From a virus: a stretch of DNA of 40,541 nt. The stretch is from IMG/VR virus record IMGVR_UViG_3300038701_001570, positions 1-40,541 of that record; one strand, written 5' to 3'. Under the pieces are notes generated by a model. It had not been told where the DNA came from. It saw nothing but the letters and a program-made list of their open reading frames with translations, and made no database searches. The position numbers and the translations under genes are program-made. This document shows positions 2,102-39,049 of the stretch, piece by piece. Each line of letters begins with the position of its first letter. Position 1 is the first letter of the stretch.

Positions 2102-2317
2102 TTAACTATTCCTGGGAGGCGTGTTTCCATGAGGTCTTTGTTGTTGTGAGAACTTCTTTTCTAGTTCGTGTCTTTCCGATGCAACTAAATAAGCATTAGC
2201 TACTCGGTAACACTCGTCCATGTACTCTTGATCTTCGTATTCATTGGGTATGTCCGTTTGAGCAATTCTAGCAAGAAGAATCTTTAAAGCTATCTCGTCA
2301 ACAATTCGTGGTCCCAT
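2102..2317 (-). CDS. small hypothetical protein, 71 aa
   Basis: A short, charged, probably helical protein (MGPRIVDEIALKILLARIAQ at its start) with a Pro/Arg-rich C-terminus. No family recognised. It lies between the 60-nt tRNA-like element and the DNA polymerase gene, 11 bases from the latter. Its last codons (ACG CCT CCC AGG) carry one copy of the dispersed CTGGGAGG motif, read as Pro-Pro-Arg. Coding is supported by position, direction and lack of a better frame. Confidence 0.6.
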   Translation of the reverse strand: MGPRIVDEIALKILLARIAQTDIPNEYEDQEYMDECYRVANAYLVASERHELEKKFSQQQRPHGNTPPRNS

Positions 2318-2352
2318 CGTCTATTCCAAGTAAAAGAAAAGAGAAACAACAT

Positions 2353-2412
2353 TGGACGAGGATGGGATTCGAACCCATCTACCCCTAACCTTGGCATTCA
2401 GTTAGCTCGTCC
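2353..2412 (-). other. 60-nt tRNA-like element with complete acceptor and T-arm, no D-arm
   Basis: On the minus strand a perfect 7-bp acceptor-like stem (2406-2412 with 2354-2360) closes around a 6-bp T-arm-like stem (2361-2366 with 2374-2379) with the canonical T-loop TTCGAAT. Position 2353 gives an A where the discriminator would be. No CCA is encoded. The 26 nt between 5' acceptor strand and T-arm form one hairpin (2400-2405 with 2385-2390, 9-nt loop) and leave no room for a D-arm. No plausible anticodon loop with U33 can be placed. It sits between the exported-protein gene and the 71-aa gene. It could be a degenerate tRNA, a mini-tRNA, or an RNase P/Z processing site. Confidence 0.65.
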
Positions 2413-2426
2413 ACACCAGCATGATG

Positions 2427-2771
2427 TTAGCGATTGCGTGGCAACAGCTTGATGCGACTCTGATTCCAGCTCCTCAGAGGCGACAGGAGACGACTTCGGA
2501 GGTTGTTTGACACAGAACCAGTCGAACCTCCTGAAGTGCTCACAGTGGAGCCTGTGGAGCCTCCAGAGACAGTGACAGTGGAACCACCACTAACACCTCC
2601 AGTTGAGCCATTTGACTCCGCACTGTAGTAGACCGACGAAGCTGGAGTGTAGTATCCGTCCGAAGTATTCGGAACGTAGACAACACCGTCAGCAGTAGCG
2701 ACGGATGACAGACAGAATGCAGTGATGCAGAGAAGCACCGCAGCCATCAAAAACAATAGTTTACCCTTCAT
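2427..2771 (-). CDS. exported Gly/Ser/Thr-rich small protein
   Basis: 114 aa. Residues 1-27 form a clear Sec signal peptide (Lys at 2 and 4, hydrophobic core, likely cleavage after SVATA). The mature part has Tyr/Pro-rich sequence, then a low-complexity GSTG/SGGST repeat tract at about residues 54-88, and a basic C-terminus (SRIKLLPRNR). The start is well supported by AAAGGAAAGAAC just before the ATG. The gene stands between two tRNA-like elements inside a DNA-replication operon, which is odd for an exported protein. It resembles small host secreted proteins in style, but no family is recognised. Confidence 0.75.
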   Translation of the reverse strand: MKGKLLFLMAAVLLCITAFCLSSVATADGVVYVPNTSDGYYTPASSVYYSAESNGSTGGVSGGSTVTVSGGSTGSTVSTSGGSTGSVSNNLRSRLLSPLRSWNQSRIKLLPRNR

Positions 2772-2800
2772 GTTCTTTCCTTTCGAAAAAAGTATTTAAA

Positions 2801-2824
2801 GTTTATCTGGACGATCCAGTAAAC
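2801..2824. repeat. inverted repeat just 3' of the 147-nt tRNA-like element
   Basis: GTTTA(T)CTGGA-CGA-TCCAGTAAAC forms a hairpin with a 3-nt loop and one bulge. It begins 2 nt after the 3' end of the tRNA-like element on the minus strand and precedes the exported-protein gene. No T-run follows directly. Together with the hairpin at 2980-3007 it brackets the tRNA-like element with stem-loops. Confidence 0.5.
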
Positions 2825-4057: not shown

Positions 4058-5062
4058 TCAGCGAGCTTTGCGTTTTACAGTTTTCTTAACTGCTTTCTTT
4101 ACAGTTCGTTTAACTGGTTTCTTTGCGGTGGGGTTCATGCCGCGTTCAATGTCGAATGCACCATTCAAAGTTGAGTAGAACTTTGATGCATCATTTGGAA
4201 TTTGAAGTTTTTCCATTTGCGTACCATCTTCATTTCTGAATCCGATACCAGAAGCAACTTCCAATTCCCGAGACGGATCGTGCATATACAAGCAACGATT
4301 ACCGTCATCCCATCCATAGTAAAACCAGAAGTCACAAACTTGCTTCATGATCTTGCCACATGCTGGAGGGCATGAAGGACCAATCATTGTAAGGGCTTGA
4401 GTGCCTTCCATCAGTTCCATCTCACGTTCTTTGGCGTGAGATAAAAACAATACTCCGATTTTGTTTTGACGAAGATACTGAATGTATTTCGTAAAAGTAA
4501 TTCGAAGTTCGTCCCACAAGTTGACGTTGGGGACTTTAGCGAAACATGACTTCACACCATAGCGAGCACAGATATGCTCTTGGCAGGCAGAGTATGCCAC
4601 GTCTACAGAATCAAAAGTGATACCATCAGTATCACCACGTTCAACTGCTTCATATCCCAAGTAAACCATTTGACTCCATGGATCATGTTCGATCATTGAG
4701 TCAGGATCGTTGTAGTCAACTAGCTCTTGTAGTTCTTCCGATTCTTTAAACACAAAATCCTGTTTACGAATTTTAATGTTTTCTCGGAAAGGCTCTAAGC
4801 AGAAGTTAACATAGTTTGGAAAGGATGATGATGCAGAAGTTTTACCAATACCCTTTTGACCATAGATCAAAATGCAGTATTCCAACAACCGTTTAGGAGG
4901 TTGCGAAATGTCTGCGACTCCTGGGAGGGTGAGGGAGAACGTTCCGCTCTTTTCTCCACGAGCACCAACTGATGATGCTTTCTTCTTAACAGCTTTTTTG
5001 ACTGCTTTCTTCACAGACTTCTTGACAGCCTTTTTGGCTCGAATGTCTTTTAGCTTTGCCAT
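4058..5062 (-). CDS. RecA-like/AAA P-loop ATPase (Sak4-like) with KKAVKK tails at both ends
   Basis: 334 aa from the ATG at 5062, chosen because AGGAAC lies 5 nt upstream; an in-frame ATG at 5095 would overlap the previous stop. Walker A is at residues 68-75 (GQKGIGKT) and Walker B at 149-152 (TFDS). A VLFLSHAKE segment follows, as in phage nucleotide-binding proteins (AAA_24/Sak4 group), which promote recombination or annealing with a partner ssDNA-binding protein. Unusually, both termini carry histone-H1-like lysine repeats (KKAVKK at residues 10-28 and again in the last 25 residues). The same repeat dominates the gene at 6213-6629. The neighbours (nuclease upstream, ssDNA-binding protein downstream) define a recombination module. 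Confidence 0.85.
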   Translation of the reverse strand: MAKLKDIRAKKAVKKSVKKAVKKAVKKKASSVGARGEKSGTFSLTLPGVADISQPPKRLLEYCILIYGQKGIGKTSASSSFPNYVNFCLEPFRENIKIRKQDFVFKESEELQELVDYNDPDSMIEHDPWSQMVYLGYEAVERGDTDGITFDSVDVAYSACQEHICARYGVKSCFAKVPNVNLWDELRITFTKYIQYLRQNKIGVLFLSHAKEREMELMEGTQALTMIGPSCPPACGKIMKQVCDFWFYYGWDDGNRCLYMHDPSRELEVASGIGFRNEDGTQMEKLQIPNDASKFYSTLNGAFDIERGMNPTAKKPVKRTVKKAVKKTVKRKAR

Positions 5063-5087
5063 GTTGTTCCTATTAACAAAAGAATGA

Positions 5088-6209
5088 TTAATCAACGAGT
5101 TCTTGAAATGGCACCTCTCCAGTTACAATTGAGTGCTTGTTGTGAAGAACCAGCAAGTCGTAATACTCGCCTTTACCGAAAGTGAGTGCGTCGAATACGC
5201 CGTGTGGCCTTTGCCAATGATGTGGATTTGGCTTGAAAACCTTTTTTCTTGTTATTGGATCGAGCACGGTTATTCTTTTTCCGTCTTTGGTTCGCTCGAC
5301 CCATGGTGAAAAAGGATCATGCTTCACCGACTCCCACCATTGAATAACCGAAGTTAACAATGGGTCAAAAGTATGACGACGCCAGTGATCCAATCGTTCT
5401 TGCGAAAGTGGGTACTCCGCACGAAAGTAAAAGTGACTTGGATTTTCTTCAATTAATGAAGCGATACGATCCAAGAACTCTTCTTCTGTTTCGTCACGTT
5501 GCTTTGCTTTCGACTTGGGGTTAGCCAATTTGTAAGCTGCCAACTCTTCTTCTGACATTGCTGTCTTCGAAGGCTTGAACTTAGGTTTTCGAATAACGTT
5601 GTAGACAATCCCAGAAACTCTTTTCTTGTATTTAATCTGAGCTGCAACAGCGTACATCATTGTTTGAAGGTTGTGAGGAATGGAAGCGATAATGTGATCG
5701 CGGTCAATCCTTTCCTTCGTCTTGTTTTCTTGAATCCAAATAGTTCCGTCAGGACGTTCGATGATTTCATCAAACCTACCACGAAGAAATAACTTGCGTT
5801 GTCCTAGTGGAGTGTAAGGAACTTTGAAAACGTCTTCTTGATGAATGTATCTGTAGTTGCATTCTTCGAAGTTCCAAAGGTACCAATCGAATACAACATC
5901 AGCTACTTTTACGTCTAGGTCGGAAAGAGTGGAGTACACTCGTTTCTTACGTTTGACTTTTGCAATGATTGCTTCTGCATCTAAGTCTGGATACTTAGCG
6001 TGCGTTTCCAATAACTCATGAAAGTACGAACCAAAATCCATATTGTTTTTGGAGTGTGGTTCTCTTGCACCTTCAACAGCGTAGAGACGGAAACGTTCTC
6101 TGCAACCAATAAACTTAGCGAGAAGAGTTTGAGAAATACCATCATCCAACGTCCACATAGGTGAAGGTGCAATGGCTTTTGGGCTTCTGTTAGTCGCTTT
6201 CTTTGCCAT
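5088..6209 (-). CDS. PD-(D/E)XK exonuclease, RecB/Cas4-like
   Basis: 373 aa. The nuclease signature is clear: motif I with GSYFHELLE (H64), the active-site pair GRFDEII (D147) and IQENKTK (E161, K163), and motif QTMMYAV (Q182, Y186), in the order and spacing of RecB-type exonucleases. Such phage enzymes resect DNA ends for recombination with a ssDNA-binding or annealing partner. No helicase domain and no clear Fe-S cysteine set are present. The gene precedes the ATPase and follows the KKAVKK protein by 3 bases, so the genes are likely co-translated. Confidence 0.85.
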   Translation of the reverse strand: MAKKATNRSPKAIAPSPMWTLDDGISQTLLAKFIGCRERFRLYAVEGAREPHSKNNMDFGSYFHELLETHAKYPDLDAEAIIAKVKRKKRVYSTLSDLDVKVADVVFDWYLWNFEECNYRYIHQEDVFKVPYTPLGQRKLFLRGRFDEIIERPDGTIWIQENKTKERIDRDHIIASIPHNLQTMMYAVAAQIKYKKRVSGIVYNVIRKPKFKPSKTAMSEEELAAYKLANPKSKAKQRDETEEEFLDRIASLIEENPSHFYFRAEYPLSQERLDHWRRHTFDPLLTSVIQWWESVKHDPFSPWVERTKDGKRITVLDPITRKKVFKPNPHHWQRPHGVFDALTFGKGEYYDLLVLHNKHSIVTGEVPFQELVD

Positions 6210-6212
6210 ACC

Positions 6213-6629
6213 TTAAACCAGTGAGAGATGATCTTCTTGGGCGTACAAACAATTCGATAATCGGTATCGCATCATGTTTTTCCCAGCAGAGTCATTGCCT
6301 ACATAGACGCCTTGAATAAACGCTTTGTACGGTTTTGCTTCTGGGGGAGAATGGAGGACGCGAGCACCGACTTTGAATTTGATTGGTACTTGCATTGAGT
6401 CGTCAAGAACTAGATAGACTTCATAGCGAAGCTTTCGCTCTGCTTTCTTTTTCTTGACGTTCTTTTTAACAGTTTTCTTAGCAGTACGTTTCACTGCTTT
6501 TTTAACTGTTTTCTTCACAGCTTTCTTTGCTGCTTTTTTAACTGTTTTCTTGACAGCTCTTTTTGTCGGACGTTTAACAGTCTTCTTGAATTTCTTCGAT
6601 TGCTTTTTCGCCTTTTTCTTAGTAGGCAT
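6213..6629 (-). CDS. KKAVKK-repeat histone-H1-like protein fused to a small C-terminal domain
   Basis: 138 aa. Residues 1-65 are almost pure Lys/Ala/Val/Thr repeats (KKAVKK, KKTVKK), a pattern shared with bacterial histone-H1-like proteins that bind DNA without sequence preference. Residues 66-138 form a separate small domain (RYEVYLVLDDSMQVPIKFKV at its start), possibly a beta-barrel. No family recognised for it. The ATPase at 4058-5062 has the same repeats at both ends. The likely job is DNA binding or compaction during recombination or replication. Confidence 0.75.
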   Translation of the reverse strand: MPTKKKAKKQSKKFKKTVKRPTKRAVKKTVKKAAKKAVKKTVKKAVKRTAKKTVKKNVKKKKAERKLRYEVYLVLDDSMQVPIKFKVGARVLHSPPEAKPYKAFIQGVYVGNDSAGKNMMRYRLSNCLYAQEDHLSLV

Positions 6630-8776: not shown

Positions 8777-8807
8777 AAGTATGATACTTTTCCCATTCCG
8801 GTCGGAG
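8777..8807 (-). promoter_or_regulatory. composite promoter/operator element, copy 1
   Basis: A perfect 13-bp palindrome AAGTATGATACTT (8777-8789), 8-nt spacer, then CCGGTCGGAG (8798-8807). On the minus strand the order is CTCCGACCGG, spacer, AAGTATCATACTT, then the gene start at 8754 after 22 bases. The palindrome contains a TATSAT hexamer that could serve as a -10 box. CCGGT/ACCGG (8798-8802 with 8811-8815) can also form a small hairpin. Two other copies occur at 8883-8914 and 21990-22021 with nearly the same spacing. Confidence 0.6.
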
Positions 8808-8882: not shown

Positions 8883-8914
8883 AAGTATCATACTTCTTAG
8901 GAATCCGATCGGTG
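8883..8914 (-). promoter_or_regulatory. composite promoter/operator element, copy 2
   Basis: AAGTATCATACTT (8883-8895), 9-nt spacer, CCGATCGGTG (8905-8914). It starts immediately after the stop of the gene at 8916 and lies upstream of the terminator on the minus strand. The spacer sequence differs from the other copies while both boxes are conserved, as expected for a protein-binding or promoter element. Confidence 0.6.
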
Positions 8915-9335: not shown

Positions 9336-11308
9336 TCTAGTACACCAGTCAAAGTGTGAGTAAACGAATTAAAGTAATTTGCAATGTAGGTAGCCCATGC
9401 AGTTGCATACGATTCTTTTGTTGTATTTTGAATTGTCAAAGAAGGTTTCGGGGTAACTCCTGTTCCAGCGGTTACGACTCCAGCAAGCAATCCAGATACC
9501 GAATCTAATTCATAAGGTAGAAAGAATCGATTAGGAGAAGAGGAATACTCTTTATTGTTAAACGTAAGTTTATTGTTAACAATCGCGTAGGGGACTTTAA
9601 TTTGTAAGGTACTGTAGTAATCTTTAAAGAACCCTATCAACAGAGCATGGTAGTCCGGGTTATCCGCAGAGTTATATGATGTTCCCGTATAGAGAGTATC
9701 AATATACGAGCCAATTTCTGCATCCGTACTTGTCATCGTTAAATTAAAAGTAATAGCTTCGGGCAAATTATCTCCAGTATAACTGGGATCAGGATTAACA
9801 CCTTTTCTGTAAGCTCCTGCACTTGGAACAGAGTACACGTATAAAGGTTGATCGTATCCATCAGACACAAAGTAAGAATACTTAATATTTCCATTGTGAA
9901 ATAAGTCAGATGGAAGAGGGTTTGGAATTGCCCGTTCAAACTTTAAGTATTCTAACGGATCACCTTCAAAGGTCATTTGTCTTGCAAGAGGTGTTCGAGA
10001 CTCCACTGTTTCTACGCTAACACGTCCAGTTGGTGCTACAGATATTTCAACAATGGATGGAACTTGTTTTGTTAAATCCAAATTGAAAGAACCACTTAAG
10101 TTATCAGTATCGACTAAAAGAGAATCGGTTATGGATTCTCCATCTGCTCTAATTACGTCAACAAGATGCATATAGTCATCTGTCATTGATTCGACATACC
10201 CTCGCATCTTTACCACGTAGTAGTTTTGATCGTAATCCAAAGCAACTTTAGGGTACTGCATCTTCCGATCAAAATGCTGAACAACGTATTTTAAATCTCC
10301 TCCAGAAAAAACAATTGAAAGTTTACTCCATTGTCCTTCGTAAAAGTATTCTGGGGGAAGGTAGTGGGTTTCGAAAGACGCATTACAGTAAATGTTGATT
10401 CTGGCTGCATCCAGAATTTCTTGTACTTGGGAATCTACGATGTTCACATACGAACCGTAGTACGGAGAAAGCACTACGACTTCTTCTTCTTTCTGAATGT
10501 ACATCTCATCCATGATAGGCCAAAGTAATTTCTCGTATCGAATCTCATCCCATTTTCGAATCCGAGTTCTTTTCTTAAAAAGAATTTCATTCTTTATTGT
10601 TGTTACAGTCTCACCTTCAATTTCTTCTGAAATACGAACAGGCTTAATCAAAACTCGATAGCCCATTGCGTAACAAAATTCATGAATGCAATCCAACTTA
10701 GTTCGCTGATACCATCTTAGTTCTTCTGGACATAATGCCGGAAATGGTTGAACTGTTTCGTCATCAAAGAAGAACTTATTGTTAGTAAATAGCTCTTTGA
10801 ATGCATCCCAAGTGATGATGTCATAAGCTACTTCAAAAATTTGATCTAATGCTGCGGACACTCCTGGGAGGCGAAAGAGTGACTTTTCGACAAACTGTCG
10901 GTCCATCACATACTTAATCTCACGAATCTCTAGTACAACAACTGTCGGCATCGGAGCATTGTCTTCATAAACAATTTCATCGTCGTCGTCATAAATGATT
11001 TCTCCGAACTCGTCTCTTTGAGGTACAAGTGGTCGTTCGTGTGTGTACTTGTTCTCTACAACAAACATCTGTTCATAGACGTAGAAGGGGAACCCTTCAG
11101 CTTCGTTGTCTGGTCCTGCTGGGTCTTCTTCAACTTCTTTTTGATAGTTGAGGTTCCGAACTTGCAATAATACTTCTTCATTAATTGAAGGAGCTTGTTC
11201 ATAGTACATTGCAATAATTGATTTCCAGCAGTTTCCTGAATCAGAAAGATGAAGCTCATTTCTAAAGCCTGGGAGATCAACTAAAGGAAAGCCATTAATG
11301 TAAATCAT
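9332..11308 (-). CDS. large hypothetical structural protein, 658 aa
   Basis: No family recognised. It opens with a short domain (MIYINGFPLVDLPGFRNELH), has an acidic loop near residue 107-121 (GEIIYDDDDEIVYEDN), and its second half is rich in beta-strand-forming Tyr, Val, Thr and Ser residues (VYSVPSAG, NNKLTFNNKEYSSS). It overlaps the next upstream gene by one base (TAATG). Position behind portal and tail genes and composition suggest a virion component, perhaps a baseplate, tail-tip or neck protein. Two copies of the CTGGG-purine motif lie within it (exact at 10864-10871, variant near 10351). Confidence 0.65.
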   Translation of the reverse strand: MIYINGFPLVDLPGFRNELHLSDSGNCWKSIIAMYYEQAPSINEEVLLQVRNLNYQKEVEEDPAGPDNEAEGFPFYVYEQMFVVENKYTHERPLVPQRDEFGEIIYDDDDEIVYEDNAPMPTVVVLEIREIKYVMDRQFVEKSLFRLPGVSAALDQIFEVAYDIITWDAFKELFTNNKFFFDDETVQPFPALCPEELRWYQRTKLDCIHEFCYAMGYRVLIKPVRISEEIEGETVTTIKNEILFKKRTRIRKWDEIRYEKLLWPIMDEMYIQKEEEVVVLSPYYGSYVNIVDSQVQEILDAARINIYCNASFETHYLPPEYFYEGQWSKLSIVFSGGDLKYVVQHFDRKMQYPKVALDYDQNYYVVKMRGYVESMTDDYMHLVDVIRADGESITDSLLVDTDNLSGSFNLDLTKQVPSIVEISVAPTGRVSVETVESRTPLARQMTFEGDPLEYLKFERAIPNPLPSDLFHNGNIKYSYFVSDGYDQPLYVYSVPSAGAYRKGVNPDPSYTGDNLPEAITFNLTMTSTDAEIGSYIDTLYTGTSYNSADNPDYHALLIGFFKDYYSTLQIKVPYAIVNNKLTFNNKEYSSSPNRFFLPYELDSVSGLLAGVVTAGTGVTPKPSLTIQNTTKESYATAWATYIANYFNSFTHTLTGVLE

Positions 11309-12876
11309 TATAGTTCGCTCATTTGAGGAGAGATTAAGGTTGGGAAGTCGTAAACTTTACATTCAATGTCATATGCTGCTTGAGGCGGGATTCCTGTTGA
11401 GCCGTATCCTTTTTGTGCATTAAGAGCATTGCAGTATGTAGTTGATAAGGTAGAGTCAACGTTAACGCCATGTCCATTCATTGTTATCGGGTAATCTAGC
11501 AAATCACCAAAATCAAGAACGTTTGGAAACTTCTTCAGAGGCAAACAGATTGGTGTAAAGCAATCGGAATAAAATACTTGAAGAGTCATTGCATGAGACC
11601 CTACAAACCAAACAAGATAATCATTGAAAGTGATTGTTGGCAACCGATTAGCAGGTATCCTCAAAGTTAGATTAAAAAGATTTAAATCTTTTCCTACATT
11701 GCTTGTGAAAAAATTTGAAACTCTATCTAAGTATGTACGATACACATGACGTGTTCGCGTTATCAAATTAGAAGCTGGTTGAAAAGGTATTCCTTTAATT
11801 GCGTCTGTTAGAACAGAACTAAAAACCGGAGGATTAGTGTATGCTGGTTCTGGAAAAATAGGTGACCCAACATCTCGAAACATATAAAAACGTTTATCGA
11901 GGTGTTCTATCATGTGAGGGTTAGAAGCATCTGCTCGATACATATCATCTTTTATGTATGAACGCGATGTTTCGTAATACGGTATTCGTGGGGCCGAATA
12001 TAAATACAAAACCGACGAAGGAACTTCTGCTTCTACTTCGTCTTCTTTTCCTTCAAGTTTGAAACTTTTAGTAGTTAAACTATTTGTTGTGTACGCCGTT
12101 TCGTCAGAAGAATTGTTAATAGTAAACGATCCCGCCATTTCTCGATAGAAGATGGTGTCGTCTTGTCCTGATGCTCCCGCAGCCAATACCGTCCCATTTC
12201 TGGGATTAAAGGTTCTGATTGGTGAGTTCGATGATCCTACAACTGGCAATCGATAAGGGTTTAACCATCCATAGTCATAAATGCTGCTTAAGTTAACCCC
12301 TGTGTATACGTTTGATTTAACACTAAAAACATTATTACTTTCTGTGTAGGTCGGTGAGGCAGGTAACGTTGAAAGTTTTGCAGGCCAATCGGAATCTCGT
12401 GCTGTTATCAAATCATCTCGAAACAACGTTGCAAAATTTACCTTCTGTAACAAAAAGTAATACGCGAAAGTACCGATAGGTTCTGCTTCAAAAATCGGAG
12501 TTATATCGTCCAAATGTTCATTGATCTCATCAACCCAAGTATCTGCTAAATCAATTAATTGAGTTAACCGAAGTTTCACTAGCTCATCCCGATACGAAGG
12601 ATAAATCATGAAGTTAGCCACCATTGGAATTGGTGGTTCTTTAGTTAACTTCAATACTCTTCTATAGTAAGCAGGACTTGCATCAGAACTATACGCCCAA
12701 GGAGGTAAATTAATAAAATAAAGCTTATCTCTTCCAAGAGTGTTTACTTCGTTAACTCCGATTGTTTCTGGGAGGGTAGCGGCTAGCCCTTTCGTAACTG
12801 GCGTACTGAAATTGACAATTTGTCTATTCCGCCCCTCGATGTCACCCAGATCAGGCAAGTCATAATTAATTGGCAT
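11308..12876 (-). CDS. large hypothetical structural protein, 522 aa
   Basis: No family recognised. The protein is rich in Tyr, Pro, Asn and Ser with alternating hydrophobic residues typical of beta-rich virion proteins (for example RLPVVGSSNSPIRTFNPRNG). It has no signal peptide or membrane segment. Its neighbours are the portal gene upstream, separated by a terminator, and the 658-aa gene downstream with a one-base overlap. It probably forms part of the portal/neck or tail tip together with the 658-aa protein. Confidence 0.65.
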   Translation of the reverse strand: MPINYDLPDLGDIEGRNRQIVNFSTPVTKGLAATLPETIGVNEVNTLGRDKLYFINLPPWAYSSDASPAYYRRVLKLTKEPPIPMVANFMIYPSYRDELVKLRLTQLIDLADTWVDEINEHLDDITPIFEAEPIGTFAYYFLLQKVNFATLFRDDLITARDSDWPAKLSTLPASPTYTESNNVFSVKSNVYTGVNLSSIYDYGWLNPYRLPVVGSSNSPIRTFNPRNGTVLAAGASGQDDTIFYREMAGSFTINNSSDETAYTTNSLTTKSFKLEGKEDEVEAEVPSSVLYLYSAPRIPYYETSRSYIKDDMYRADASNPHMIEHLDKRFYMFRDVGSPIFPEPAYTNPPVFSSVLTDAIKGIPFQPASNLITRTRHVYRTYLDRVSNFFTSNVGKDLNLFNLTLRIPANRLPTITFNDYLVWFVGSHAMTLQVFYSDCFTPICLPLKKFPNVLDFGDLLDYPITMNGHGVNVDSTLSTTYCNALNAQKGYGSTGIPPQAAYDIECKVYDFPTLISPQMSEL

Positions 12877-21989: not shown

Positions 21990-22021
21990 AAGTATGATAC
22001 TTTCTACTTCCCCGATCGGTG
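21990..22021 (-). promoter_or_regulatory. composite promoter/operator element, copy 3
   Basis: AAGTATGATACTT (21990-22002), 9-nt spacer, CCGATCGGTG (22012-22021): the same boxes and spacing as copy 2, 13 kb away. On the minus strand it would drive the zinc/HhH gene and the tail operon. A sequence GCGGTCGGAAACC lies nearby (21973-21985), echoing the CGGTCGG box of copy 1. Confidence 0.6.
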
Positions 22022-27775: not shown

Positions 27776-28269
27776 GTTATTTCGTCTCCATAGGTAACAT
27801 TAGCTGATTCGCCATTTTCAATGGTCATACTGAAAGGTTCGTTTTTCTTTGGGATTTTTGCAATGTCTTCATCGAGTGCTGCTTTTGCAGCGGCACCGTT
27901 CTCAACCGCACTAGGCACATTGAGTAGTGCGACTTTTTCGACAATCAGGTAGACCAAGTCATCGGCCTCTACCGACAGCGTCACTTCGCCGCCTTCATTG
28001 GCCGCAGCGAAAAACGAGTCTGCTATATCGACTTCGTGCTTTCCGTCGCCAACGTGAGTGATCGCAGAGTCTTTGTGTGTCCCAGCAACGTCGCGAGTCG
28101 TCAGCGTCAGGGCTGTCTCGGTGCCTTCGCGGCCATCCGAATCAACTCTTGCACTGATCGCGATCCCGTCGCTTGACGGCCCGAGAACAAGCGGTTCATA
28201 GCTTGCGTCCCTCGCCCAGAAGACGATTGTTTGGTCAGTCGACCCCGGTGCTACGCTTCGATTGCTCAT
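27772..28269 (-). CDS. fibre accessory protein with composition breakpoint
   Basis: 165 aa, beta-rich, no signal peptide. The first about 130 residues (STDQTIVFWARDASYEPLVL, LTLTTRDVAGTHKDSAITHV) match in style the small domains found next to planctomycete and phage fibre proteins. Most of the gene is GC-rich like its upstream neighbour, but the last 100 bases (encoding KIPKKNEPFSMTIENGESAN onwards) switch to the AT-rich phage composition. This looks like a recombination junction near 27870. It overlaps both neighbours by 4 bases. Confidence 0.65.
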   Translation of the reverse strand: MSNRSVAPGSTDQTIVFWARDASYEPLVLGPSSDGIAISARVDSDGREGTETALTLTTRDVAGTHKDSAITHVGDGKHEVDIADSFFAAANEGGEVTLSVEADDLVYLIVEKVALLNVPSAVENGAAAKAALDEDIAKIPKKNEPFSMTIENGESANVTYGDEIT

Positions 28270-31200
28270 CCAACCACCTCTAAACCTGCCATAACTGCGA
28301 TCTGCCGAATGAATTGGCGTTGAGCTTTGATCACGTCCAGCACATCCGAAACCAAAAGCGTTGAATTGTTGGTCACTGCCACGCCCGAAACGTCTGCCAA
28401 AGCGTTACCCGCCGCGTCTTCAATGTCGGCGGAAGCGTAGGCCAATGTCACCAGTTCGCTGCTGTAGACGACCCGATCAAGCGAGTAGACCAACCCGTCA
28501 CTGCCGCTCCCGCCTGTGTACGTTGCGACAATGGAATCGATCGACAGTGTCGGAATCGAAGTGCCAGTCACGTCCTCGTCAAAAGTGACGGTCAGCGTAT
28601 CGCCTGCGGTGTTGATTGCGGCTGACTCGATTGTCGGTGCAACTTCGTCAACCGGGATGATCGTCAACGTGACTTCTGCCGGATCGCTGACGTTGCCTTC
28701 GTTGTCGGCAATCGTGTACTCAAACGAGTCGCTTGTGGTTTCAGAATCGTCGTGTGTGTAGTCAACGGTCCCGTTGTCATTGACAACGATACTGCCGTTC
28801 TGCGGAGCAGTTGTGATCGTGATGCTTGTTAAATCCAAACCACTTCCGCCATCAGAATCGTTTGTTGCGAGATTAAGATTGAGTGTTCCACCTTCAAGCA
28901 GAGCGAATGCGTCTTGCACGGCATCAGGCGGCACTTCATCAACGTCAGTAACCGTGACCGACAACGCCTTAGCAAAATCGTCGGTCCCGTCATTGACGTT
29001 GACGCGAATCGAATAGCTCGACTGCGTCTCGTAGTCGAAGACTTCAGCGGCTTTCAGGCTCGTGCCGTCAATCGTAAACGAAGCGTTGTCTGTGTCGCCC
29101 GTGCCGCTAACCAATGTGAATGTGTGAGTGTCGCCTTCGTCTGCGTCGGTTGCAGAAAGTGTGCCGATTGCGTCACCGATTGAGTTGCCTTCGGTGATTG
29201 TCGACGACGAAAGCGTAATGTCGGTGGGTGCGTTGTTCGGAGTCGCGTCGACCACCGAACCAGTGATCCAGGGATCGCTATTGATATTCGCGATTGAACC
29301 CAACGCGTCAACGCTAATCTCTTTGTGCAACGTCCGAACTGACGAAGTTGTTAGCCAAACTTTGAAATACTCAAATTCCGAATCGCTCGGCATTGTCACC
29401 GGGGCGAATTGCAGCTTGCGATTCGTTTGTGCCGTGCCGGAACTTGATGACATGTCACCGTCCACAACAAGCACATTGTCAACAGTCAATTGGACCTTGC
29501 TGTTGTCGAAGTCCACCAGCATGTTGATTGTGTAAACACGATCAGTTTCGTAATCGAATCGGGTTTCGCCGCCCGTGTAGACAATTGATGCTGTGCTGTC
29601 CTCGATGGCCGAAGGATAAATCTCCGACGCACTTGTAAAAATCAATTGCCCTGCCGAAAGCTGACGAAAAAGGATCGAACTGTTTGGTGGGGCAGACGGC
29701 AACTTTGTTTTGACTTCGTACTCGATAACGCTTGTGCTTGCCGGTACGTTTGCCGTGTCTTCGAAAGTCGCACCGTTGAGAGCAAACGGGTCCGCCAACG
29801 TCTGTACCGTTGTGATTGTTGGCGACACCTCAAATCCGTTGATTGTGATGGTCGCCGAAACCGACGTGCCACCCGATGACGACGATGTCTTGCGAATTTG
29901 AATCTTTTCGAGATGGTCAATCGTGCCCGACGAGGTTGTCCAGGCTTGCACTTCCGTCGTCCCGTCTGACTCGGTGGATCGCCACTCAACTCCGGTCCCC
30001 GGCACAACCGTTTGGCTGTCGCGTCGGTTTGTCACTGTTCGCAGCGGAAACGTGACGACTGTGTCCAGATCGACTTGCGATTGATCTTGCCAAGCGACAC
30101 CAGAATCGACATTTTCCCACTTAACGACTTGCGTGTAATCAGTCGTCACCCAGTCGATTGCATTGGTTGTGCCAACCGCCCCGAGTCCTTCCGCTTCGGC
30201 TGCGGATGTCAACGCAGATTCGACTTCTGAGACCGTTGTTGCCGTTGCAAGGTCGTCAATATCTGGAAATAGCAGATCCGCATCGGCAGCATCGGAAACA
30301 AGCAACGAATCATTGAATCCAACCTCGCCGTCATCGACTATCAAACGTTGGTAAACCGTCTTGCTGATTGATGCCGAACTGTCGTCGGTAGCAAGCCGAA
30401 TCGCTGAATCGGTAGAATCAACGTTCTGAGCGTTAAGGACAGTCGCACCGAAAATATGTGTGTCCCGTGCTGGGTAGTCATTCGAATCAGTTTTTTCGCC
30501 AACCACCAAACCGACGTCTGACCCACCGATCCAAGTATCGCTGATCGATTGGAAACGGACGTAGCTCGGCGTATAGTCGTTGTCAGAAATCAACGCTCCT
30601 TGTCCGGTAGATCCTGTTCGGACAGGCTGCCGGATTGTTCGGAAACCTGCGGACAACACGTCGGAAATTGAACCAGCACCGTTGGCGAACATCTGGAACT
30701 GATCGCCATGCGGATCGCGAGCATCGCCATCTTCGTCTTGCGCTCTACCACTTCGCGAAAACGGCACTTGCGTCAGATTGCGAAGTACGTGGACCTCGCA
30801 CGAGGTGCCGACACTGAGCGAGACAATGTCCTCGTATATCTGTTCGAATTCGTTGTTGAAAATAACAATCTTATTCTGAGGTATCCCAAAACCTTTCGCA
30901 CCTGATCGCAACGCTTTCAGTTTGCTGTTTTGTAAGGTCACTTCGTTTACTGTCGCTGATCCAGACGCGGCGAAAGCAGAAGAAAGATATTGAGGCAGTC
31001 CGATCTCAGTCCGTGCATTAACCGACACAGAACCAGATGCGGACAAGATCGCAATATGCGTAACTGACTGCGGATCGAAGCTGTCAGTGCGAACTTGAGC
31101 GGCACCGCTGGCAGCAAGGGTATCACCCGAAGTTGCCACGACTGTGTTGTCGCCAAGTTTGAAGTAAACATCCTCCGCACCGTTGTTGAAAAATTCGATC

Positions 31201-31664
31201 CAAGCTGACGTTGCTGATCCGTCCTTGAACGTCAGTGCGTACCGGGTGCTCGTTGTGGTCGCTGTCAGATCGTTGTCGATTCGCTCATATTCTGCCAGAT
31301 CCGCCGTCATATCAAAATCAACAAGGCTTGCTCCGTACCCGTGACGGAACAAACAATCGTTGAAGATAAGGTTGTTAAACGTTCCTGATCCAAAATTAAC
31401 CAAGGACTGGTTGGTGTAAGGCCAGCCGGTACCAACCACTCGCAAGCCGTCGCAAATAACGCCGTCAATCGTTCCTGTGTAGTCCAGACCGGCGACAGAA
31501 CTTGATGCGTCGGCACTCTGAATCGTGATCCCTGACCCGCTGAATGATCGATTGATTTCTGGACGCCCCGTGACCACTCCGTCAGCCTCTAGCACATCGC
31601 CATCGGTCGCAGCCGCAAGCTCGATTGCAAATTCAGCAGCAGTAGTGAAAGTTCGGGTTGCCAT
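28266..31664 (-). CDS. large host-like adhesin/tail fibre with beta-helix and cadherin-like domains
   Basis: 1132 aa. The N-terminal half is a repetitive parallel beta-helix style region (starting with GDVLEADGVVTGRPEINRSF). A concanavalin/LamG-like segment follows (FDYETDRVYTINMLVDFDNS). Then come a cadherin-like domain (about 811-910, SATDADEGDTHTFTLVSGTG), a second Ig/cadherin-like domain with an NDSDGG loop (about 911-1007), a SwmB/SbsA-type domain (about 1008-1102, LTVTFDEDVTG), and a C-terminal helix. The order is that of exported bacterial adhesins, notably in planctomycetes, but there is no signal peptide. The GC-rich, GC-ending codon use differs sharply from flanking genes. It probably binds or degrades the host surface. 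Confidence 0.75.
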   Translation of the reverse strand: MATRTFTTAAEFAIELAAATDGDVLEADGVVTGRPEINRSFSGSGITIQSADASSSVAGLDYTGTIDGVICDGLRVVGTGWPYTNQSLVNFGSGTFNNLIFNDCLFRHGYGASLVDFDMTADLAEYERIDNDLTATTTSTRYALTFKDGSATSAWIEFFNNGAEDVYFKLGDNTVVATSGDTLAASGAAQVRTDSFDPQSVTHIAILSASGSVSVNARTEIGLPQYLSSAFAASGSATVNEVTLQNSKLKALRSGAKGFGIPQNKIVIFNNEFEQIYEDIVSLSVGTSCEVHVLRNLTQVPFSRSGRAQDEDGDARDPHGDQFQMFANGAGSISDVLSAGFRTIRQPVRTGSTGQGALISDNDYTPSYVRFQSISDTWIGGSDVGLVVGEKTDSNDYPARDTHIFGATVLNAQNVDSTDSAIRLATDDSSASISKTVYQRLIVDDGEVGFNDSLLVSDAADADLLFPDIDDLATATTVSEVESALTSAAEAEGLGAVGTTNAIDWVTTDYTQVVKWENVDSGVAWQDQSQVDLDTVVTFPLRTVTNRRDSQTVVPGTGVEWRSTESDGTTEVQAWTTSSGTIDHLEKIQIRKTSSSSGGTSVSATITINGFEVSPTITTVQTLADPFALNGATFEDTANVPASTSVIEYEVKTKLPSAPPNSSILFRQLSAGQLIFTSASEIYPSAIEDSTASIVYTGGETRFDYETDRVYTINMLVDFDNSKVQLTVDNVLVVDGDMSSSSGTAQTNRKLQFAPVTMPSDSEFEYFKVWLTTSSVRTLHKEISVDALGSIANINSDPWITGSVVDATPNNAPTDITLSSSTITEGNSIGDAIGTLSATDADEGDTHTFTLVSGTGDTDNASFTIDGTSLKAAEVFDYETQSSYSIRVNVNDGTDDFAKALSVTVTDVDEVPPDAVQDAFALLEGGTLNLNLATNDSDGGSGLDLTSITITTAPQNGSIVVNDNGTVDYTHDDSETTSDSFEYTIADNEGNVSDPAEVTLTIIPVDEVAPTIESAAINTAGDTLTVTFDEDVTGTSIPTLSIDSIVATYTGGSGSDGLVYSLDRVVYSSELVTLAYASADIEDAAGNALADVSGVAVTNNSTLLVSDVLDVIKAQRQFIRQIAVMAGLEVVG

Positions 31665-31798: not shown

Positions 31799-32797
31799 CT
31801 AGTCCTCATGGGGGGCGTAAGTAATAACAATTGAACCTCCGCCATAATATCGAAAAGTTGATGAGTCTCTAAATCCAACAACGTAACTTCCAAGATTATT
31901 GTAAACTTCTGCTGGAAGATCAAAAGAAATTGAATTACTTGTTTTATTTAAATCAGCGTTAGCAATAATAGCTACATCAGTTTTTGAAGAAGACTCGATA
32001 ATACAAGTAATATCAATCGCAGTTAGATCATCTTCTACTGCAAATTCTGCGGTATTGTTGTTTTGTTTGACAATAAAAGACAATCTTGTTTTTATTTCAG
32101 CCACGGAGCCATATCCAGGTAAGTTGTAAGCAAGTTCAGTTGAAGGAACAAAAGTACCAACTGTGTCATCTACTTGAACATTTAATTTCACATGTTCTGG
32201 AAGAGGAACATAGCAACTGCCGGTTTCCCCATTTCCCATATCAACGTCGTAACGAACATCTTCGGGGTCAACATTAATACCAGAAGGTTCACCTTCAAGT
32301 GTACCTTCAAACTCTGTTCCTCCAGCACCATAAAAAACACCGTCTTCAACTTCTCCTACTTCTGGGAGAGTGACTGTTCCTGTTGTGGCATCTACATTGA
32401 CACCGTTGAGCACTTCACTAGCTAAAGGAACATAACAAGTTCCGGTGCTCCCGTCTCCTCTATCCACTCCAAATCTAACATCGGAAACATCCGCGTAAGT
32501 AACGCTACCTCCAGGAGGGTCAGGAACCGACGCAGAATAATCACCCATTGGAGGGTTATTAATCTTTTTAAATTCAATTGGATTGTTGAAATGAAAAACA
32601 ATATTGGAGTCACTATTGGTGATATCCAAAGCATCATACTCTTCAGAAAGATCAGTAGCTAATACTACAATGTAAGCATCCTCCAAATATAAAGCATTTA
32701 CATAGGTCAAAGCTTTTCCGAGTGTAGCCCATCCTGTTCCTTCTGTCAGACCATCATTGGAGTCATCACCATCGTCTGTGATGTATCGAACGTTCAT
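31799..32797 (-). CDS. modular tail fibre protein with tandem DVR-CYVPL repeats
   Basis: 332 aa. The N-terminus (MNVRYITDDGDDSNDGLTEG, then WATLGKAL) resembles the start of parallel beta-helix surface proteins. Two repeats follow at residues 106-142 and 180-216, sharing DVR(F/Y)xVDxGxGxTGxCYVPL and VxVDxTxGT. Residues about 232-332 form the fibre-end domain duplicated in the 153-aa protein at 27314-27775. It probably forms a trimeric side fibre. Composition is the AT-rich phage type, unlike the adhesin gene next to it. Confidence 0.65.
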   Translation of the reverse strand: MNVRYITDDGDDSNDGLTEGTGWATLGKALTYVNALYLEDAYIVVLATDLSEEYDALDITNSDSNIVFHFNNPIEFKKINNPPMGDYSASVPDPPGGSVTYADVSDVRFGVDRGDGSTGTCYVPLASEVLNGVNVDATTGTVTLPEVGEVEDGVFYGAGGTEFEGTLEGEPSGINVDPEDVRYDVDMGNGETGSCYVPLPEHVKLNVQVDDTVGTFVPSTELAYNLPGYGSVAEIKTRLSFIVKQNNNTAEFAVEDDLTAIDITCIIESSSKTDVAIIANADLNKTSNSISFDLPAEVYNNLGSYVVGFRDSSTFRYYGGGSIVITYAPHED

Positions 32798-34607: not shown

Positions 34608-35426
34608 TCATGCAGCCGTAGCAAGAGTTGCAGATTCGAGAGAGAATGCTTCGTGAGCGGTAGCACGATCCAAAGACAACAAGCCTAGACCATTCTCGCC
34701 CCACCCTTCTCCCCAGGAGTTTGCGATCAAGATCATGATTTCGCCATTGCGAAGAACCACGTCAAGAGCGTAGACCAAGTGCCCCCACCACATCAAACCC
34801 AAGGTAACTGGGTTGTTGTAGAAGAGAGAAGAAACAATGGCATCAATGTTTTGACGCGGTAGTTCTTCTACCTTGGTCAGTTTGTGAAGCATAGCGAACT
34901 TTCGCTGTTCTTCAGTATCGTGACTTCGCGAGTTGGATGCTTCAGGCCAACGGTCAACGGAACTACACCCGTATTTCGCAAACCCTTTAATGGCTTCTTC
35001 TGCCCAACCACCAACATCACGATAATTCTTAATCTTTGCCGCAGTAGATGCAGCAGAGAATTTAATTGTATTTAAGTTCATCCGTGCTCGCACGGTCATG
35101 AACCCTCCAATTGTTCCATAACACCAGCACCAAGGACGACGCTGTTGATTCAAGATAGGAACATTCTTGGCTTTCCAAATATGGTACAAGCCATTTTTGT
35201 TTCGTTCACGTTCTTCGATTCGCTCTTTCCATTCGGAACGAGGAACCATGGGAAGCGAGAACAATTGAGCAAAACCACCTACAGGGTTCTTTTCAAAATC
35301 ACGTCCATCAATGTATCCGCGAAGGTCATTGGTAGAAGAATCATTTTGAAAAGTCTTGTAGTTGAGGCTATTGATAACCTCCAACTTAGGCATTTGCTTT
35401 ACGCATTCGCTAGTTTGCATCGTCAT
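34608..35426 (-). CDS. papain-like (C1-type) cysteine protease
   Basis: 272 aa. The papain catalytic pattern is complete: N93-Q94-x5-C100-W101 (NQQRRPWCWCYG; papain NQGSCGSCWAF), a later W-G-H216-L-V-Y-A-L catalytic histidine, and N236-S-W-G-E-G-W-G with the catalytic asparagine. No signal peptide or prodomain-like inhibitor is evident; the first 85 residues could play that role. Phage C1 proteases are uncommon. It lies inside the membrane/lysis cassette, next to an exported redox protein and a lipoprotein, so it may attack envelope or host proteins. A head-maturation role is unlikely given the separate protease gene. Confidence 0.8.
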   Translation of the reverse strand: MTMQTSECVKQMPKLEVINSLNYKTFQNDSSTNDLRGYIDGRDFEKNPVGGFAQLFSLPMVPRSEWKERIEERERNKNGLYHIWKAKNVPILNQQRRPWCWCYGTIGGFMTVRARMNLNTIKFSAASTAAKIKNYRDVGGWAEEAIKGFAKYGCSSVDRWPEASNSRSHDTEEQRKFAMLHKLTKVEELPRQNIDAIVSSLFYNNPVTLGLMWWGHLVYALDVVLRNGEIMILIANSWGEGWGENGLGLLSLDRATAHEAFSLESATLATAA

Positions 35427-35953
35427 TTGTTTTCTTCCAAAAATTGAATGGTTCGGTCAACGTCTTCGCCAAGGCGAGAGGTTTGATAACCATCAGGGGT
35501 AACAATGCCAATGGCAGGTAAAGTAGGAACTTCTGATCGAATCCTTTCTTTAAGTTCCGAGAAGGGCGGAGGAATCATAAACTCTCCGGTATCTGGATGC
35601 GTTTGCGTCAAATCTTCTTCATGATCGATTTTCAACAAAGCTGCTCCACCTTCATACTTTGCACAATTTTTCTCTGCCCATTCAACTAATTTCGGTGAAG
35701 TGAAAATAGCTTGCTGGGAGGTAGAAAGTGTTTCTCGCTGTGCTGCGTTTTCCAGAATCAAGACATACGTTCCATCAACGTCTGGATTCGGGGGAGGAGA
35801 TGGACCCGGCGTAATGTCGCATCCAGGCCACAGTAAAAACAATAAAAGTAATCCCATTAGCAGGGCAACAATCCACCCTCCATAAGATTTTTCTTTTGGT
35901 GTTGGCGTCGTCAACCGTGGTAACGGCTGATACTGCTCAGTCAAATCATTCAT
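35423..35953 (-). CDS. single-span membrane protein with periplasmic thioredoxin-fold-like domain
   Basis: 176 aa. A short cytoplasmic N-terminus, one membrane segment at about 27-43 (IVALLMGLLLLFLLWPG), a Pro-rich linker (DITPGPSPPPNPDVDG), then a domain whose end (TLPAIGIVTPDGYQTSRLGE) resembles a thioredoxin fold with a cis-Pro loop but with no CxxC. It could be a partner of the CPPC protein two genes downstream. It is coupled to neighbours by overlaps of 4 and 8 bases. It contains an exact CTGGGAGG site (35714), coding Thr-Ser-Gln. Confidence 0.6.
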   Translation of the reverse strand: MNDLTEQYQPLPRLTTPTPKEKSYGGWIVALLMGLLLLFLLWPGCDITPGPSPPPNPDVDGTYVLILENAAQRETLSTSQQAIFTSPKLVEWAEKNCAKYEGGAALLKIDHEEDLTQTHPDTGEFMIPPPFSELKERIRSEVPTLPAIGIVTPDGYQTSRLGEDVDRTIQFLEENK

Positions 35954-36674: not shown

Positions 36675-38293
36675 GCGTAACCTCGATACCCGCTTAGAGG
36701 GCTGTATAGGGGGGAGTGACGTATCGACTGATACGGTAATATTGGAGATGGCACCGACATAACCGTCAAGGTCTTTTCTCGATGCTCCATAGCATTTTCG
36801 CCTAGAACTTCATCCAAAGGACCAATTTCTGTCGCTGCATCCGACAAAGTGTCGATGATATCATCGGTTTCATTTGGCATCCCTGTCCATCCGAATACCT
36901 CATCTTCGGCTTCATTGATCCACGGAGCGTTATGCGGGAAGTAAACTTTCCCTGCGTCCATCAAGAGTTGAGCCGCGATGCTGTTCTCTAGCTTGTCTGT
37001 TCCTTTCTTGTTCGCTTTAACTGGAACACCCAAGTCTCGAACATACTGAGAAGGACCAAGCCCAACTCCATTTGTCTCCATCTTAAAATAGATACTGGGA
37101 AAAGGCTCGACCCATTTGGTGTACATCGCTACCACTTCAGTAACCACCTTTGGTATCTCTTCTCGGAATCGTTTCATATCCAACCAGAATAAATCTTTAT
37201 TCTCTGTTACACCCCAGATAGAGATGACAGTGTAAGACGGAGAACGATTAGCGACTTTTTGATCGATGATACCTTTTTTAGTTGTTCCCGCAGGGTCAAC
37301 AGTAGCAAAAACCTTTTTAAAGTTACTAAGTGGATAAACGACTGGTCCCAATTTATAACTGGTCGGGAACAAGTCGTAGTAGCGGACGTTCTGTCGCTTG
37401 AACCTCGTATCAATTCGTGCTTCCCAGTTACCATCACGCAGAGCTGATTTCATTTCAGGTGCGAGGTTGGTCAACAACTGGTCATAATCCTTTTGATCCA
37501 AGTACGGGTTATCTTCCAAGAAGCTAGGAATAAATTCCCGTGTTGGGTGCGTAGACACGAAGGGAACTTTAATTCCTTTCATGATTGCATCAATTGCATC
37601 TCGCTTATCTGGATACAATTTAGGGTCTGGAACAATAGAGAAATACTTTTTAATCCATGATCCGCCTTGTCCCCCAGGGTTGCTAGCTGCAAGCATTCGA
37701 ACAGGAGTTCTCTTCTTTAATTGACATTCTTGGCAATCATCTAAATAAATAGCGTTACCTTGTTTGTCTTTCCCATGCGTAGAACAAACCGTTTTTCGAA
37801 GTCGAGTCAGCAACCATTCGTAATCATTAGATCGTTCCCAGTGAGATAGCTCATCAAAACATACCGTTTGATACTCTGCCGACTGGTATCGATCAGAAGC
37901 GTTTGCATCCCCAGAATAACCAAAGCAAAGCTTGGCATCATTGCCTCGACTTCCATCAGGATTAAACGTTTTAAAGTGATAGGCATGTTCACTAGGAACA
38001 TACCGGACAGGCCCGCCACGTACTGTGTATTTACGCAGCCATGCACGGGCACGGTCCAGCAATGCACCCGGTTGCTTCAAGTCAGACAGTTGGCGACGAA
38101 AAATGATACTGGCATACCCAGGAACATCCATGTACTGCAAACCTGCCATTAAAAGCAAGTCCGATTTCCCCCCTCCCAGAGCACCACCGAAGAAAACTTC
38201 TTTTGTTGTTTCTGCGGCTTTCAACGCAGCAAGCTGACGCTGTGTAGGTTTGTGAGGAATGAACGGATGCCATTTAATTTTTGTCTTCGCCAT
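36671..38293 (-). CDS. terminase large subunit
   Basis: 540 aa from the ATG at 38293; an upstream TTG would extend into the preceding gene. The ATPase half has Walker A GGALGGGKS (36-44), Walker B VCFDE (D147, E148) and the ASNPGG coupling motif (203-208). The nuclease half shows the RNase H-fold acids D333 (VDPAG), E406 (METNG) and a late D in TDDIIDTLSDA. A CxxC pair (187/190) is unusual. It powers DNA packaging into the prohead. The Walker A codons contain the only reverse-orientation copy of CTGGGAGG, explained by GGGK. A small-subunit gene was not recognised. Confidence 0.92.
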   Translation of the reverse strand: MAKTKIKWHPFIPHKPTQRQLAALKAAETTKEVFFGGALGGGKSDLLLMAGLQYMDVPGYASIIFRRQLSDLKQPGALLDRARAWLRKYTVRGGPVRYVPSEHAYHFKTFNPDGSRGNDAKLCFGYSGDANASDRYQSAEYQTVCFDELSHWERSNDYEWLLTRLRKTVCSTHGKDKQGNAIYLDDCQECQLKKRTPVRMLAASNPGGQGGSWIKKYFSIVPDPKLYPDKRDAIDAIMKGIKVPFVSTHPTREFIPSFLEDNPYLDQKDYDQLLTNLAPEMKSALRDGNWEARIDTRFKRQNVRYYDLFPTSYKLGPVVYPLSNFKKVFATVDPAGTTKKGIIDQKVANRSPSYTVISIWGVTENKDLFWLDMKRFREEIPKVVTEVVAMYTKWVEPFPSIYFKMETNGVGLGPSQYVRDLGVPVKANKKGTDKLENSIAAQLLMDAGKVYFPHNAPWINEAEDEVFGWTGMPNETDDIIDTLSDAATEIGPLDEVLGENAMEHREKTLTVMSVPSPILPYQSIRHSPLYSPLSGYRGYA

Positions 38294-38297
38294 GATC

Positions 38298-38642
38298 TTA
38301 TCCAAGGTAACCGGGAGTCGTAGGTACGAACGCTTTTGGTGATCGCACGTAATTATTAACAAACCATTCCCAAGCAAGCTTCAATGCCCACTTAATCAAA
38401 ATGCTGAGCATGATAGAAAGTATGATACTTTTGTATCCAGCATCTTGCAGATACTTAGTGTACTTGGGGACAAGACGACGTTTCAATGCAGTACGCATAT
38501 CCTTCCAGTAATTTGCTTTTACCTTTTTAGCAATTTTGCCAAGAGATTCAGCGTGAAAGAAATTTGCACTGTGCATCAAATTGTCGTATTCGCCTTGCAG
38601 GATACTACGAGCACCCCGTTTTGTTTCAAGAGAAATAACCAT
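38298..38642 (-). CDS. hypothetical protein with C-terminal hydrophobic helix
   Basis: 114 aa. The N-terminal 70 residues are helical and basic (LGKIAKKVKANYWKDMRTAL). Residues about 74-96 are hydrophobic (ILSIMLSILIKWALKLAWEW), so it may be membrane-anchored. Not recognised. It is one base from the exported gene upstream and 4 bases from the terminase start. A 13-bp palindrome identical to the promoter element's first box occurs at 38418-38430, within codons for KSIILSI. Confidence 0.6.
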   Translation of the reverse strand: MVISLETKRGARSILQGEYDNLMHSANFFHAESLGKIAKKVKANYWKDMRTALKRRLVPKYTKYLQDAGYKSIILSIMLSILIKWALKLAWEWFVNNYVRSPKAFVPTTPGYLG

Positions 38643-39049
38643 TATCCACCATTTCCAATAAAGGGACCATCTTGTGATTTTAAATACTCTTCTTGTGCTT
38701 CTACCAATGGGTCTTTGTGGTAGTGCTCCTTCTCCCGCATCTTTTGATGGTACAGGTGATCGTCAGGATACGTGTAACCCTGTGGGTGTCCGTCCATAGG
38801 CCAGTTTGGAATAGGATCAGGTACCGGAAGCATCTGAGATAGAGGATCATCTGCAATTGCGTCAGGTTCCTCGCATGTTACTGCTTGGCGGATTGCCCGA
38901 ACCTCCTTTAATATTTCTTTCAGAATCTCTTTCTTGGACTCTGCGTCAGTATGCAACGTGGTTGCAGTGACATTTTCTGGGAGGGTAAGCGTTGCCAACC
39001 CTATCAACATCCCCAGCACGAACAGTGCGAACTTTTGTTTGTAATTCAT
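38642..39049 (-). CDS. exported acidic protein with EPDAIADDP motif
   Basis: 135 aa. A signal peptide or N-terminal anchor (KFALFVLGMLIGLATLTLPE), a helical stretch (EILKEILKEVRAIRQAV), then C-E-EPDAIADDP followed by a Pro/His/Tyr-rich tail (NWPMDGHPQGYTYPDDHLYH). The nine-residue EPDAIADDP string recurs at the end of the neighbouring 128-aa protein, though the rest is unrelated. It has an exact CTGGGAGG site at 38977-38984, in LPEN. Function unknown. Confidence 0.65.
   Translation of the reverse strand: MNYKQKFALFVLGMLIGLATLTLPENVTATTLHTDAESKKEILKEILKEVRAIRQAVTCEEPDAIADDPLSQMLPVPDPIPNWPMDGHPQGYTYPDDHLYHQKMREKEHYHKDPLVEAQEEYLKSQDGPFIGNGG

Follow-up and report, generated by a model that had tools for sequence, protein, structure and literature searches.

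Oriented signals of known kinds include primase recognition words, Chi sites and the FtsK-orienting polar sequences (KOPS; GGGNAGGG), oriented sites being typical of signals of the FtsK/KOPS type. The start sites of primases are usually regarded as words of three to five bases, too frequent to require selection. Phage T7 primase recognises 5'-(G/T)2GTC-3', a core of 5 nucleotides (nt) whose 3' C is untemplated, together with 10 nt of 3' flank; approximately 26 sites are active, spread along the lagging template in groups 1-6 kb apart (PMC12839067). The initiation trinucleotides of Escherichia coli DnaG and the Staphylococcus aureus primase are 5'-CTG-3' and 5'-CTA-3', respectively (PMC11109968), while the T7-gp4-like Twinkle of Arabidopsis reads two untemplated (cryptic) purines adjoining the start site (PMC10557236). 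Here a strand-biased motif is described from a virus record of 40,541 bases (IMG/VR record IMGVR_UViG_3300038701_001570), the whole of which is referred to as the window. Its form in the window is the octamer CTGGGAGG. The motif is real and under selection at the level of nucleic acid. We tentatively favour, at slightly less than an even chance, its being the lagging-strand priming signal of the phage's own DnaG-type primase-helicase.

CTGGGAGG occurs nine times on the plus strand of the window and once on the minus strand, and all ten coordinates given in a first-pass annotation were correct. Genes of the window lie essentially all on the minus strand; the motif is read here on this coding strand and the octamer is named by its plus-strand letters. 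Nine copies compare with 0.29 expected under a second-order Markov model, which ranks CTGGGAGG first among all window octamers (p = 3e-11, before correcting for 65,536 words). Over 100 dinucleotide shuffles the total for both strands averaged 0.65, with a maximum of 3. Within genes, the coding-strand octamer CCTCCCAG was present eight times against 0.30 under synonymous-codon shuffling, which preserves all proteins and the codon pool, and the maximum among 2000 shuffles was four. The claimed over-representation was thus upheld by these tests, and the enrichment is not due to Leu-Pro or Pro-Pro usage, which by the annotation's own account would have told against the proposal. Any codon-pair or dipeptide cause was ruled out by codon-shuffle tests in the window, in its relatives and in a group of phages of approximately 50 kb described below. 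The annotation had placed the octamer inside genes, which is true of eight copies but not of that at 2112, some 22 bases upstream of the start of a PolA-type polymerase. All three reading frames do occur, as it had stated, but unevenly: six of the eight genic copies read CTC CCA (Leu-Pro), one Pro-Pro-Arg and one Thr-Ser-Gln. Because the plus-strand octamer was chosen by eye out of 65,536 words, chance or a compositional or codon artefact has to be considered. However, CTGGGAGG remains the top octamer after correction and the signal reappears both in relatives and in the second phage group, with reversed-pattern controls flat. The codon shuffles in all three sets of genomes, with the positional conservation described below, exclude such an artefact, to which we give almost no weight.

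The octamer is the form taken in the window by a broader motif that reads, on the coding strand, as a pyrimidine tract followed by CC(C)AG-(A/G)A; pooled k-mer tables gave the consensus (C/T)10-CC-A-G-(A/G)-A. The sites in the window, written as on the strand named, are as follows.

1215-1223, minus strand: variant CCTCCCCAG/AA, within the PolA gene
2112-2119, minus strand: exact copy CCTCCCAG/GA (CTGGGAGG on the plus strand), upstream of the PolA start
4921-4929, minus strand: exact copy CCCTCCCAG/GA, in the Sak4-like gene
6341-6351, minus strand: variant TTCTCCCCCAG/AA
6732-6752, minus strand: variant with a long tract, TTTTCCCCCTTCCCTCCCCAG/GA
10351-10361, minus strand: variant CCTTCCCCCAG/AA
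10864-10871, minus strand: exact copy CCTCCCAG/GA
11269-11276, minus strand: variant TCTCCCAG/GC
11850-11858, minus strand: variant TTTTTCCAG/AA
12768-12776, minus strand: exact copy CCCTCCCAG/AA
14628-14639, minus strand: variant TCTTTCTCCCAG/AT
14742-14750, minus strand: variant CTTTCCCAG/AT
15285-15294, minus strand: variant CCCTTCCCAG/GG
16493-16500, minus strand: exact copy CCTCCCAG/GA
19151-19159, minus strand: variant CCTCCCCAG/AA
19990-20002, minus strand: variant TCTTCCCCCCCAG/AA
20155-20165, minus strand: variant TTCTTCCCCAG/AA
22165-22173, minus strand: variant TTCTCCCAG/AT
22911-22925, minus strand: variant CTTCCCTTTCCCCAG/AA
23082-23089, minus strand: exact octamer with a weak flank, CCTCCCAG/CT
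23396-23403, minus strand: exact copy CCTCCCAG/GG
32197-32208, minus strand: variant TTCCTCTTCCAG/AA
32362-32370, minus strand: variant CTCTCCCAG/AA
34011-34018, minus strand: variant CCCCCCAG/GG
34709-34718, plus strand: copy in the opposite orientation, CTCCCCAGGA, one of eight YYYYCCAGRA on this strand
35714-35721, minus strand: exact octamer with a weak flank, CCTCCCAG/CA
38172-38179, plus strand: lone opposite-strand octamer, probably not a member of the motif
38977-38985, minus strand: exact copy CCCTCCCAG/AA
39178-39191, minus strand: variant CCTCCCTCTCCCAG/AA

The copy at 38172 encodes, and is dictated by, the Walker A codons (LGGGK) of the terminase, as the annotation had held; the variant that it had placed near 34008 is present, at the exact coordinate 34011. 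The purine-rich tract ending in GCG or ACG that it had described after many sites finds only a faint counterpart, with a CG within 14 nt at 18 of 26 window sites compared to 38% of shuffled sites and a background of 50%.

Single-protein searches with the terminase, polymerase and capsid protein found no relatives of the window; close relatives were located by protein alignments, namely G001 (terminase 56% identical) and G023, G024 and G025 (portal 47-50%, polymerase 41-43%). The exact octamer is absent from these genomes except for two copies in G025, and was consequently rejected as the conserved unit. On the coding strand of each relative there is nevertheless a tract of pyrimidines that ends in CCAG and is followed mostly by A or G, such as CCCTTCCAG in G025, where CCTTCCAG occurs eight times against 0.39, and the TTCCTCCTTCTCCAG-type sites of G024. 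For Y8CCAG, observed and shuffled counts were 5 and 0.58 in the window, 5 and 0.34 in G001, 5 and 0.29 in G023, 7 and 0.41 in G024 and 9 and 0.43 in G025, an enrichment of 9-21 fold that none of 300 codon shuffles reached in any of the five genomes. The conserved portion is CCAG-RA, not the purine tract. That related phages lack the motif, a finding that would have told against the first-pass proposal, is therefore true of the exact octamer and false for the underlying motif. Among approximately 110 loci, mostly found by terminase, the leading motif signals all fell within the window clade, and phages found by terminase only, for instance G004, gave no comparable signal; conservation with the terminase or capsid lineage was rejected on this basis. 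One further contig, L113, is closely related to the window phage (terminase 59%) and was binned as Crocinitomicaceae MED692, in which it is probably a phage contig caught by the binning. Crocinitomicaceae were rejected as the host, the genome showing no motif enrichment, and the bin itself may be wrong.

A second group, of phages of approximately 50 kb, was found by searching with the primase-helicase and PolA. Their top strand-biased octamers were CCCCAGGA and CCCCAGAA, and in one of these phages TYCTGGGRR occurred 50 times forward and 4 times in reverse, the reversed control pattern giving 0 and 1. On the coding strands of eight such genomes CCCAGRA was counted 33-79 times against 6-15 expected from codon shuffles (z 12-24), the highest count being 79 against 12. 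BLAST showed PolA and the primase-helicase to be common to this group and the window clade, with the exonuclease in some, and family matches placed a Sak4-like protein in each of the two; the terminase, capsid and tail genes of the two groups are not recognisably related. In G023-G025 a DnaG-type primase-helicase of 700 amino acids, with a CPFC zinc finger (CPFC..C..C), Toprim domain and Walker A motif, lies directly after PolA, and primases bearing a zinc finger and a Toprim domain are encoded by G023, G024, G025, G541 and the ~50-kb group. The primase-helicase gene occupies L127:4958-7060 in G024 and L171:16379-18406 in one of the ~50-kb phages, on the minus strand in both. No match among cultured phages was obtained with the primase-helicases as queries. 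G001 and the ~50-kb phages have a subtilisin-like protease gene in common, at 45% identity (e.g. L171:12015-12995); the protease resembles those of Bacillus phages SP-15 and vB_BcoS-136, most other genes being unrelated. The window itself encodes a terminase (phrog_979), capsid protein, portal, Sak4-like protein, exonuclease, MazG-like protein and, at its left end, the PolA-type polymerase, so that the place of the primase-helicase gene falls beyond the left contig end. Its replication and recombination genes are the following.

105-2090, minus strand: PolA-family DNA polymerase (phrog_17, E 1.5e-85)
4058-5095, minus strand: Sak4-like recombination protein (phrog_124)
5088-6209, minus strand: phage exonuclease (phrog_1218)

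The distribution of the motif across these genomes bears on its function. The annotation had likened it to Chi-type or packaging/replication signals; of these, replication is favoured, whereas a link to packaging is not supported, since the motif tracks replication and recombination genes rather than terminase or capsid. The same observation makes some other oriented DNA signal improbable, whether for translocation polarity of the FtsK/KOPS kind, for packaging, or as a site related to restriction or defence and kept in one direction. Purine-rich cores such as GGGAAGGG do recall KOPS, but the conserved part is CCAG-RA rather than the purine tract, and restriction would select avoidance instead of enrichment.

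Positional comparison was made between pairs of ~50-kb phages at approximately 70-80% nucleotide identity and between G023 and G024. YYCCAGR sites were kept at homologous positions at frequencies of 0.33-0.72, compared to 0.16-0.37 for permuted control patterns. The annotation had left it between conserved positions and conserved counts: the sites are conserved in position, approximately two- to threefold above controls, but the exact octamer is not conserved. Its attribution of selection to DNA or RNA instead of protein is borne out by these positions and the codon shuffles alike. Spacing in the eight ~50-kb genomes was more even than random, with a coefficient of variation (CV) of 0.54-0.88 against approximately 0.97, and permuted patterns gave about 1.0. 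For five of these genomes, no more than about 6% of the permuted controls attained the same evenness. The mean gap between strong sites was 0.8-3.2 kb, a range compatible with Okazaki fragments (approximately 1-6 kb in T7).

One orientation of the motif prevails across whole genomes. Nearly all genes of the motif-bearing phages lie on one strand, so that the orientation coincides with transcription and the two are inseparable by a strand switch. Most copies stand on the mRNA-like coding strand, as would be expected if a C/U-tract-CCAG-RA element in transcripts were bound by a regulator, Rho or an RNase, and its form is strikingly like a polypyrimidine-tract-CAG acceptor (3' splice site). Reading frames, however, stay open through the motif, and an Rfam search of the window matched no RNA family. 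In addition, copies in reverse (TYCTGGGRR, coding strand) were enriched in the structural half of the ~50-kb genomes, at 25 against an expected 5.8, but not in the other half, at 4 against 5.4; forward copies were enriched in both halves and reversed-pattern controls were flat. Selection on the sense strand only does not account for antisense copies enriched in one half; their presence argues for a DNA signal dependent on the direction of a fork or enzyme, and a signal in mRNA appears distinctly unlikely, marginally more so than the translocation or packaging signals above. Together with replication and recombination genes shared in the absence of shared capsid genes, the reverse copies favour a role in DNA replication.

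If the motif serves in priming, a stringent primase would start Okazaki fragments efficiently only at the motif, and the need for primase starts would maintain one prevailing orientation with roughly one strong site per 0.8-3 kb. In the simplest model the lagging-strand template would be the coding strand, with forks travelling in the direction of transcription; A-G-R-A would be recognised by the primase zinc finger as the untemplated 3' portion of the site, and copying of the C/T tract would yield an RNA primer made of purines only, starting pppGG. A mirror version would take the other strand as template, with 5'-TYCTG-3' as the site and a primer pppAG(A/G)A; its core would resemble the one used by E. 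coli DnaG. Were early replication to run in both directions from an origin close to where the replication half begins, and later replication in one direction only, forward sites would be expected throughout and reverse sites in the structural half alone, which would then be the only half traversed by forks moving both ways. We infer the primase as reader, the template strand and the mode of replication alike. The fuller picture, a genome-wide grid of oriented, fairly even priming sites of 12-16 nt in which reverse copies mark the region with forks in both directions, is a possibility we rate somewhat below even.

The geometry of the motif is as expected for priming sites, with a short core, an extended tract on one side and an A-rich flank on the other. 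As in T7 gp4, a PolA-type polymerase accompanies a zinc-finger/Toprim primase-helicase, and a short core plus flanking context occurs at spread sites; unlike T7, the core is CC(C)AG-RA or its complement TYCTGG, enrichment is far stronger and one orientation prevails. The complement 5'-TYCTGG-3' contains the CTG of E. coli DnaG, and a primer would begin pppAG, whereas the E. coli primase works from bare CTG and to our knowledge has left no selected 12-16 nt motif in the genome. The A-G adjoining CC would act as untemplated bases in the manner of Twinkle, which has a different core, (G/C)GGA, and for which no genome-wide selected motif is known to be described.

Several observations weigh against priming. 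Three to five core bases suffice for known primases, and a selected signal of 12-16 nt would be unusual. T7 sites, put through the same shuffling, showed only mild enrichment, TGGTC, GTGTC and GGGTC ranking 15, 18 and 384, respectively, among 1024 coding-strand pentamers, a yardstick that is compatible with priming without being compelling. The window's own primase gene lies outside the contig, which ends 104 bases after PolA, and its own spacing is not significantly even (CV 0.82). The split into half-genomes was picked after positions had been viewed, and the ~50-kb genomes are mutually related and not independent. The main weakness of the primase model is that G529, G003, G530 and G531 carry homologous primase-helicases (28-30%) and no clear motif, which implies that the specificity of the primase varies or that the motif is read by some other factor. 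Furthermore, Sak4 and the exonuclease are also common to both phage groups, and the motif cannot for this reason be tied to the primase alone.

The presence of these recombination genes in both groups bears equally on the main rival, a Chi-like signal, in which a helicase-nuclease (host RecBCD/AddAB type, or the phage exonuclease with Sak4) would read 5'-TYCTGG(R)n-3' and pass from degradation to recombination. The motif is a G-rich, polar, over-represented word of approximately 8 nt containing CTGG, as are GCTGGTGG, the Chi of E. coli, and GCTGGAGG from Proteobacteria (PMC8022716). An oriented DNA signal would equally be expected of recombination-dependent replication, which could leave regional reverse copies as well. 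The motif matches, however, none of the five reported Proteobacterial Chi motifs (PMC8022716), and is confined to certain phages, among which the exact word varies even between relatives (CCTCCCAG, CCTTCCAG, CCCCAGRA); nor is even spacing known as a property of Chi. Across 246 genomes of Planctomycetota and 247 of Bacteroidota, TYCTGGR9 reached at most approximately 41 per Mb and was typically under 10, while the equivalent in the window clade was 98-274 per Mb. With no enriched genome among these 493, a host Chi in the sampled members of the two phyla was rejected. On balance a Chi-like function seems unlikely, though much less so than the signals in mRNA or for packaging.

Other features of the window were recorded. 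The gene at 28266-31664 encodes an adhesin-like protein of 1132 amino acids with Cadherin/Big_9 domains, lies in a stretch of higher G+C content (0.49-0.54 against approximately 0.43) and was likely acquired. It carries no forward motif copy, as the annotation had observed, but the capsid genes nearby (23.4-32.2 kb) are equally empty and the gap is thus not specific to the adhesin. A protein of 1145 amino acids with a Rho_N-like domain at its N-terminus is encoded at 17099-20536. The near-palindromic 12-mer AAGTATGATACT occurs four times against approximately zero expected (8777-8788, 8884-8895 on the minus strand, 21990-22001 and 38418-38429), with two copies near CCGATCGG-type palindromes, and has the appearance of an operator or of a control site specific to the phage. 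The right contig end (39850-40541) contains GGGACTCC-type repeats (ACGGGACTCCTAG, ACGGGACTCCTGG, CCGGGACTCC) together with what may be a promoter bearing a CCCGATCGGG palindrome. Words over-represented on both strands, possibly promoters or intergenic control sites, include AAAAACAAT in the window (nine on the plus strand, seven on the minus), TTTAGCTA/GTAATTA in G023 (L125, L126) and GGAATTAA in G025 (L129, L130).

In the open-access literature no report was found that describes this motif, or any phage priming sites that are over-represented or strand-biased genome-wide. If the motif does direct priming, hundreds of bases would be kept under selection for a longer priming word, and lagging-strand synthesis would leave a readable imprint from which the direction, origin and mode of replication could be deduced in uncultured phages. 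Were it instead a recombination signal, it would represent a Chi-like element beyond the five Proteobacterial motifs, tied to phage replication and recombination genes. On either reading the motif connects two groups of phages with unrelated capsid genes.

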